Below are positions 24,489 through 26,215 of a DNA stretch of 64,000 nt, one piece after another. The stretch spans positions 62,001 to 126,000 of the IMG/VR virus record IMGVR_UViG_3300024336_000005; one strand, written 5' to 3'. The notes beneath the pieces are model-generated. The model did no database searches. It saw only the letters and a program-made list of their open reading frames with translations, and had not been told where the DNA came from. The translations under genes were made by a program, and so were the position numbers. Every line of letters begins with the position of its first letter. Positions within the stretch are counted from its first letter, which is position 1. Source of the DNA: a virus.

Positions 24489-24813
24489 ATTTCTTCACGC
24501 TGAGTGGCCGTGCTGATTGACGGCGGCTGAAAGCAAACGCAATAAACTACTCGCGCGCTTGGGTTAACCAACCGGAATCAAACAGGATACTGTTCGCGCG
24601 AAATCGGTTAGCCAGCCCTAATAGGTAGTGAGCGTTTGTAGAAAGTGTCTTAGACGGTATGTCAGGGAAGGTACAACCTGGACTCCGGATAGGCGTGAGG
24701 TGGTTCAGGGTTGTAGGTAAGAGAACGGAAAAGGTAATCTGAAAACGCCTTTCTGAAACCCATAAACCTAACAAAGGGGAGCCCGAGTGGTGCAAGCAGC
24801 CCCCAGAGAGTTG

Positions 24814-24945
24814 AAAAGCTAGGCTCTCCAGTTTCTCATAACTTATAGCTCTAGCTTAAGTTCTAGAGCGCGCCCTCCGAAGGTTGAGATTTGGGTGTAA
24901 GAATCCCAAGAGCTATAAGTTATGAAAAATTAGAGCCTAGCTTTT
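24814..24945 (+). repeat. Long composite inverted repeat
   Basis: AAAAGCTAGGCTCT (24814-24827) is complementary to 24932-24945, and TCATAACTTATAGCT (24836-24850) to 24911-24925. Both arms are perfect. Together they make a roughly 29-bp interrupted hairpin with a 60-nt apical part. Confidence 0.85.
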
Positions 24946-25040
24946 CAGTTTCTGACATAGAGTAACCCTGGCCCGGGGAAATACAGGGCTTGAGTGATCC
25001 GATAAATGGGTCCTGACTTTAACCTCTATGTCGATTAGAC

Positions 25041-25170
25041 GTGCCAGCTAACCACTGGCTAGTGGGAGTGGCGAGAATCCCACGATGAGAAGCGGAGTCG
25101 TTTCCGTAAAAAAAGCCCCGGACCTCGGAGAGGTCGGCAATCTTCTGTCGTTAGTCCCTAAACCATGGAG
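25041..25170 (+). ncRNA. Structured RNA motif, copy A
   Basis: Homologous to 36472-36614. Stems: GCCAG/CTGGC, GTGGGA/TCCCAC, CGGA/TCCG, ACCTC/GAGGT with GGA loop. Shared unpaired strings include GGCTAGTGGG, GTGGCGA and ACCATGGAG. The stems covary with copy B (see that entry), which argues for a conserved RNA fold. Class unknown. Confidence 0.65.
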
Positions 25171-26215
25171 TAGTGTGATGAGAGGCTTGCCTCAGTGATT
25201 CACAGTTATCGATGAAGTGGAGGGGATAGAGAAGCTGTGGTGTGCAGCCATAGTGGCTTGGGGTTTTAACCGCGAAGCCAAATTTCTGCCCCACCAATAG
25301 GGTAAAAATGGGATGCTTGGTGATCATCTAAAACATCCTTGAGCTATGCAGTATGCTCAAGCGCCCGCCTGGGTAATCCAGTGGGTTTAGAGAGGACATG
25401 GTGCTCCTCCTGGATACATAGCCATAAAGCCTTATTGGTTGGAGGCGGCTGTGTAATACCGACCACAATACTAGATAGTAATTTAATGTTGGAGCAACTT
25501 TCTAGTTACAGTTGCTCCCGTCTACTAGCGACGAATATAAACCGATTATGCTAGTTAAATCGGAGAATTAGGCCCTTCGGCGGTAGGAGTTCCCGCGTGG
25601 TCACTGTGCTTTTATACCCACAGACTACATATATGGATTGGGCCATTTTACCAGATGATCTGTCCCGGCAGATGCATAGGCAGCCACCTCGTTAAAAACT
25701 GGTACCGGGCACTATCTTGCAGTGGAAGCTCTTAGACCTCCGATATAAAGGGGGATTAGGTAAATCTTAGGTGCCTAAGTTAGCGAACCTGGAAGCGCCC
25801 CACGGGCAGGACTTAGCCATCCCTCATGGTGAAAGCACAAGCTGAGGGGCTTGTGTTGGTTCAATGTCTCTACACCGTTCCTGCCGGTTATGCAGGAGAG
25901 TGTTGTGAGTTCCGTGTGAGAACTCTCATGTGTGGCTGGCATTAATTGATAAGCGGGTAGAGTCGCTTATCAACAGCTCTCGACGCGGGCGAGTAAACAG
26001 AGGGGTTGCTCCTTCTGCCCGCACTCTTCTGTTCCGTCTGTAGGGTAAAAGCAGCGGGCCCGATTGGTGGGCTACGATATAATACGGACCAATTGAGGTT
26101 GGGAATCTTAAACAACAAGCTCTCGAAATTACAGAATCAGAGAGCATTCCTCTTGGCCTGGCAAGTTAAGAAGCTTAGCGGCTTCAACCAGGACCTTTTC
26201 TACAAGGAAAAAGAA

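Follow-up and report, generated by a model that had tools for sequence, protein, structure and literature searches.

A gene-free tract directly behind the tmRNA gene of a giant phage harbors an RNA, which is marked by covariation and by the recurrence of an internal domain rather than by folding energy. The domain, hereafter the core, consists of five consecutive hairpins; its secondary structure is conserved, is kept by compensation on one strand, and recurs in several phages. The window analyzed here is a stretch of 64,000 nt that corresponds to positions 62001-126000 of a 204,008-base virus record, and the features discussed below are listed in Table 1.

Table 1. Positions of the tmRNA, the gene-free tract and the core hairpins in the window, with the evidence for each
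Feature	Position	Strand	Evidence
tmRNA gene	23869..24490	+	Rfam RF00023, 83.5 bits, model 1-374
Gene-free RNA-bearing tract	24491..26205	+	no family-matched ORF; strand from core G-U pairs
Long hairpin	24812..24947	+	38 pairs, 58-nt apical part, window z -7.7
Core domain, copy A: five consecutive hairpins	25043..25154	+	R1 121.4 bits (training member); five-member covariation
Hairpin H0 (GCCAG/CUGGC), invariant UAG after	25043..25059	+	two-sided changes in 4/5 pairs
Hairpin H1 (UGGGA/UCCCA), invariant loop GUGGCGANAA	25063..25082	+	stem variants across members
Hairpin H2 (GCGGA/UCCGU)	25092..25107	+	two-sided changes in 4/5 pairs
Conserved GCYCC, unpaired in model	25115..25119	+	alignment A3
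Hairpin H3 (ACCUC-GGA-GAGGU)	25122..25134	+	100% of cells paired; two-sided changes in 3/5 pairs
Hairpin H4 (CGGCA/UGUCG), UNAG after	25135..25150	+	92% of cells paired; two-sided changes in 2/5 pairs
Core domain, copy B, short and stand-alone	36474..36600	+	R1 match, 60.4 bits; found first by blastn

The tract behind the tmRNA and its folding energy

The tract of 1,715 nt directly abuts the end of the tmRNA, and the next gene after it, a small ORF, begins at 26216; the tRNAs around the tract are located at 22881-23036 and 27769-27855. A reading made earlier from the sequence only had described about 1.7 kb without genes next to the tmRNA, and this is borne out by the open frames, the longest of which on the plus strand has 76 codons compared with a median of 194 for equal-length slices of the window. 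Among all 1,715-nt slices of the window, it is the tract that has the shortest longest open frame. The same reading had named the discovery of a gene by protein homology as grounds for giving up an RNA, and the tested tract ORFs gave no match in Pfam or PHROGs. A protein-coding gene was rejected given the short frames, the lack of Pfam and PHROGs matches and the unequal length of the core members, which range from 108 to 127 nt and so argue against a conserved reading frame. A sigma-70 promoter scan covering 22-28 kb gave no hit close to the tract.

The tmRNA is itself unusual, with a length of 622 nt that is far above the usual, and a candidate tag peptide (GNVNNMAVAA, then TGA TAG) can be read by eye around 23962-23997. 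In its Rfam alignment, 340 nt of sequence correspond to about 104 positions of the model, and therefore a large internal insertion is present. Long internal insertions are also seen in the tRNAs at 59165-59294 and 28894-28982, both of which are detected by Rfam and neither by ARAGORN. A further tRNA is apparently split (47741-48662), its 5' half carrying TCGGAAG and its 3' half ending in CTTCCGA with about 0.85 kb between them; this interval holds a tRNA-Gln and a minus-strand ORF of 288 aa (47778-48644), which has no Pfam match and is homing-endonuclease-like by position only.

An interrupted hairpin noticed at the outset within the tract is real, though its length had been put at 29 bp and actually amounts to 38 pairs. 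Its arms (24812-24850 and 24909-24947) are interrupted by one 2-nt bulge and one mismatch, its energy is -63 kcal/mol, and the 200-nt folding window that contains it reaches a folding-energy z of -7.7. The more general impression of nested long stems did not hold up, as the minimum free energy of the whole tract has a z of -5.3, which becomes -2.8 once the hairpin is removed, compared with -4.5 for a coding control of equal length from the same phage. Even the tmRNA scores only about -0.6 in comparable folding windows, and folding energy is therefore a poor guide in this phage; it was rejected as proof of RNA because of the similar value of the coding control. A second strong local hairpin signal, with z about -6 on both strands, was observed at 26800-26999 inside a small ORF (26716-27024).

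A core domain conserved by compensation in several phages

A self-search revealed a second, diverged version of 25040-25170 at 36471-36614. Patterns derived from the loop shared by copies A and B were used to scan 2.9 million viral contigs, which yielded members C (L004, with the duplicate L005), D (L136) and E (L145); D and E were added by looser viral patterns, and the remaining matches fail by model or by reading. There are thus five distinct core members, A and B in the phage of the window and one each in three others, a membership that is surely underestimated and biased towards strict loops because members were sought by exact patterns.

Within the core, H0 is followed by UAG, H1, a GAUG..GAAG linker, H2, an A-rich linker, GCYCC, H3, H4 and finally UNAG. 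The stems drift with compensation while the unpaired residues stay fixed, namely the H1 loop GUGGCGANAA, UAG, GCYCC, the GGA triloop of H3 and UNAG. When aligned by hand, the H1 stems read UGGGA/UCCCA, UGGGG/CCCCA, UGAGG/CCUCA and UCGGG/CCCGA. We also considered whether the H0 loop pairs with a 3' GUUAG to form a pseudoknot; the CUAAC/GUUAG pairing is possible in A and B but fails in C and D, and it is not claimed.

The cleanest test of this structure is copy B, given that the alignment is fitted to the structure and comprises five sequences. A covariance model (R1) trained on A, C, D and E, with B held out, recovered B at 60.4 bits and E = 2.6e-13. In the model alignment of all five members, 15 of the 25 core pairs show two-sided compensatory changes and 91.6% of the alignment cells are paired, and none of 500 shuffles reached any of the observed pairing or covariation measures. 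Sliding the structure by 1-3 columns left 38-49% of cells paired and 1-5 two-sided pairs. The model alignment has H1 out of register in three members (B, C and E), and the two-sided count therefore understates this hairpin. The G-U pairs place the core RNA on the plus strand, the same strand as the tmRNA and the tRNAs. Neither the covariation nor the recurrence of this internal domain was among the observations of the sequence-only reading.

Beyond these members, R1 found nothing else credible in the five phage records, nor in pattern-matched control loci totaling about 1.1 Mb. A loose loop pattern matched prokaryote genomes 119 times, yet none of these matches fits R1 (best E 0.26 among 80 loci and 0.86 among 39). 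In a blastn search of 50,697 phage records the tract matched nothing, and the core matched only over 35 nt, by chance. The RNA ligase of the phage, used as bait for relatives, retrieved only distant RNA ligases with less than 60% identity, and its TROVE protein retrieved no relatives; no phage closely related to it came to light. Across the compared core loci no proteins are shared, save two weak matches to this window, and taken together with the lack of TROVE relatives this indicates that the core is spread over apparently unrelated phages.

The genomic setting of the core varies. Copy A follows the tmRNA at a distance of 550 nt and has over 1 kb of non-coding DNA behind it, and copy B lies 50 nt before a tRNA-Ser (36651-36739). 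Member C is found in the interval of about 715 nt that separates tRNA-His from tRNA-Gly, D within a gene-free tract of about 1.5 kb upstream of tRNAs, and E alone between genes on a contig of 39 kb, with no tRNA detected within 8 kb. A tmRNA or tRNA neighbor is thus present at four of the five occurrences (the exception being E), and the core sits inside a long gene-free tract (0.6-1.7 kb) at A, C and D and stands alone at B and E. Outside the core, the flanks of A, C and D have no detectable mutual sequence similarity, except that C and D resemble each other in their 3' part. The core is thus the conserved unit. The comparison lends no support to the 1.7 kb being a single RNA, although it is plausible that the surrounding 0.6-1.7 kb constitutes one.

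Several other elements were observed around these loci. The same degenerate tRNA-Glu-like element lies 3' of the core in two phages that are otherwise dissimilar (L004 5817-5892 and L136 7445-7527); it has odd anticodon loops of 8 nt in L004 and about 17 nt in L136 and was called by neither ARAGORN nor Rfam. In L136, a tRNA with a long internal insertion can be read by eye at 7541-7669, and TAG recoding is possible, since a tRNA has the anticodon cta (8661-8734) and an ORF at about 9353 has TAG as its third codon. Upstream of copy B, the phage of the window encodes an adenylosuccinate-synthetase-like protein (PHROG '2-aminooxy adenylosuccinate synthetase') followed by the RNA ligase (33653-36146, plus strand), and at 40773-42416, also on the plus strand, a Ro60-like protein with a TROVE domain and a Ro60 vWA domain (PF05731, PF25045).

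Possible role of the core RNA

We contend that the tract rather probably encodes a structured, non-coding and trans-acting phage RNA, read from the plus strand, of which the core is essential and which belongs to the translation/tRNA toolkit of the phage. Such an RNA would be transcribed on the plus strand together with the tmRNA/tRNA array. The 112-nt five-hairpin domain would be its essential part, and the fold of this domain may serve to present the fixed residues, and fixed unpaired residues on compensating stems are indeed the pattern expected of a partner-presenting RNA. The common partner contacted by these residues could be a protein, the ribosome/tRNA machinery or another RNA. The long flanks, including the long hairpin, may represent lineage-specific accessory additions, as suggested by the two loci at which the core stands alone. 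The core RNA would act during infection, and its membership in the translation/tRNA toolkit is suggested by the tmRNA and tRNA neighbors at four of the five occurrences. We infer both the extent of the mature RNA and its action in trans. Regulation in cis by the core is unlikely, because what comes after the core is non-coding DNA for over 1 kb in A and a tRNA in B.

A substantial, if lesser, share of our confidence goes to a smaller RNA, in which a core of about 112-200 nt would be the sole functional product and the other 1.5 kb or so would be spacer, decayed sequence or separate RNAs, the hairpin being one of them. The short stand-alone copies B and E fit this explanation, as do the absence of sequence conservation between the flanks of A and those of C or D and the energy outside the hairpin, which is not above that of the coding control. 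However, long gene-free tracts occur at C and D as well, which is unlikely for useless DNA in gene-dense phages, and the 38-bp hairpin is far from chance by its z value. Somewhat more tentatively, the core may be a mobile module of 112 nt, shared by unrelated phages and representing a new class of large ornate RNA, that occurs either alone or, inside tRNA/tmRNA arrays, within lineage-specific RNAs of 0.6-1.7 kb, perhaps as a multimeric scaffold with an origin independent of GOLLD and ROOL.

It is improbable that the core instead acts as a processing element, or as a self-cleaving or self-splicing one, that matures a neighboring tRNA or tmRNA. Although the core adjoins a tRNA or tmRNA at four of the five loci, and the phage possesses an RNA ligase (34785-36146) as well as an apparently interrupted tRNA, the distance and the side of the core relative to the tRNA vary and E has no tRNA nearby. 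Moreover, no ribozyme or intron family of Rfam was matched, and an identity as a group I or group II intron or as a ribozyme was accordingly rejected.

Membership in GOLLD or ROOL, which the sequence-only reading had raised, and with it the assembly of a homo-oligomeric cage, is harder still to sustain. GOLLD and ROOL, the known large cage-forming RNAs of phages, lie near tRNAs and have no known function (PMC12286853), and the tract resembles them in size, ornate fold and position in a phage tRNA region. GOLLD, too, has tRNA genes as neighbors and sometimes includes a tRNA (PMC6582537), and the degenerate tRNA-like elements 3' of the core in C and D speak for a likeness in this respect. Nevertheless, at E <= 10 the GOLLD model (RF02032) matches neither the tract nor any of the four core-bearing records, and the ROOL model (RF03087) likewise matches none, a negative that is weaker than the one for GOLLD as it was obtained without a positive control. 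For GOLLD, the control consisted of 301 mycobacterial-family genomes, in seven of which RF02032 finds loci (two over the cut-off), one of them at 217 bits with a tRNA inside. In the opposite direction, R1 found no match in these seven true GOLLD loci. The stand-alone copies B and E, with a core of 112 nt, are also far smaller than cage-forming RNAs, among which the GOLLD cage is a 14-mer and the ROOL cage is octameric.

The least probable explanation is that the core is the partner RNA of the phage Ro60/TROVE protein, a Y-RNA-like scaffold. In its favor, this protein is encoded 4 kb from copy B, but none of the four other core records, which are possibly fragments, has a TROVE match, and no Rfam family of Y RNAs was matched.

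Comparison with known RNAs

The tract was compared with all 4,227 families of Rfam 15 by cmscan at E <= 10, which included the search for GOLLD, ROOL and HEARO that the sequence-only reading had proposed, and no match to these or to OLE or raiA was obtained; the matches consisted of the tmRNA and chance ones of microRNA or snoRNA type. At the other core-bearing loci, no family overlapped the core. Given that neither the GOLLD nor the ROOL model matches, the 112-nt core was filed as a new family instead, and by these model searches it would seem to be a new family of phage RNA and not a known cage-forming RNA. The suggestion of a new structured-RNA class, made at first for the whole 1.7 kb, thus holds for the core, on the strength of covariation and of its presence in four phage lineages. 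The core shows that structured RNAs of rare large-phage lineages are missed by Rfam, and its small size provides a testable handle on the role of structured RNA in phage tRNA/tmRNA regions.

With HEARO, OLE, raiA and other large Rfam RNAs, the tract has only its size class in common. The tmRNA (RF00023) is its immediate upstream neighbor, and by position both would be stable structured RNAs of the translation toolkit, but the RF00023 match ends at 24490 and leaves the tract uncovered; a permuted-tmRNA model gives a weak, sub-threshold match that runs past the tmRNA to 24556. ROOL is likewise a large phage RNA near tRNA genes, whereas its model has 574 positions compared with the 112 nt of the core. 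GOLLD, too, is phage-borne, large, ornate and located within tRNA arrays (a location that the tract shares and that is not specific to GOLLD), in some cases encloses or adjoins a tRNA or a tRNA-like element, and joins a conserved part to divergent ones. The new family and GOLLD differ in that their covariance models match in neither direction, and in that the conserved part of GOLLD is a 3' domain of about 416 positions, whereas the new core is a series of hairpins that also occurs in stand-alone copies. The new family therefore occupies a genomic place like that of GOLLD and ROOL, yet its conserved part is only 112 nt long and is also found alone.
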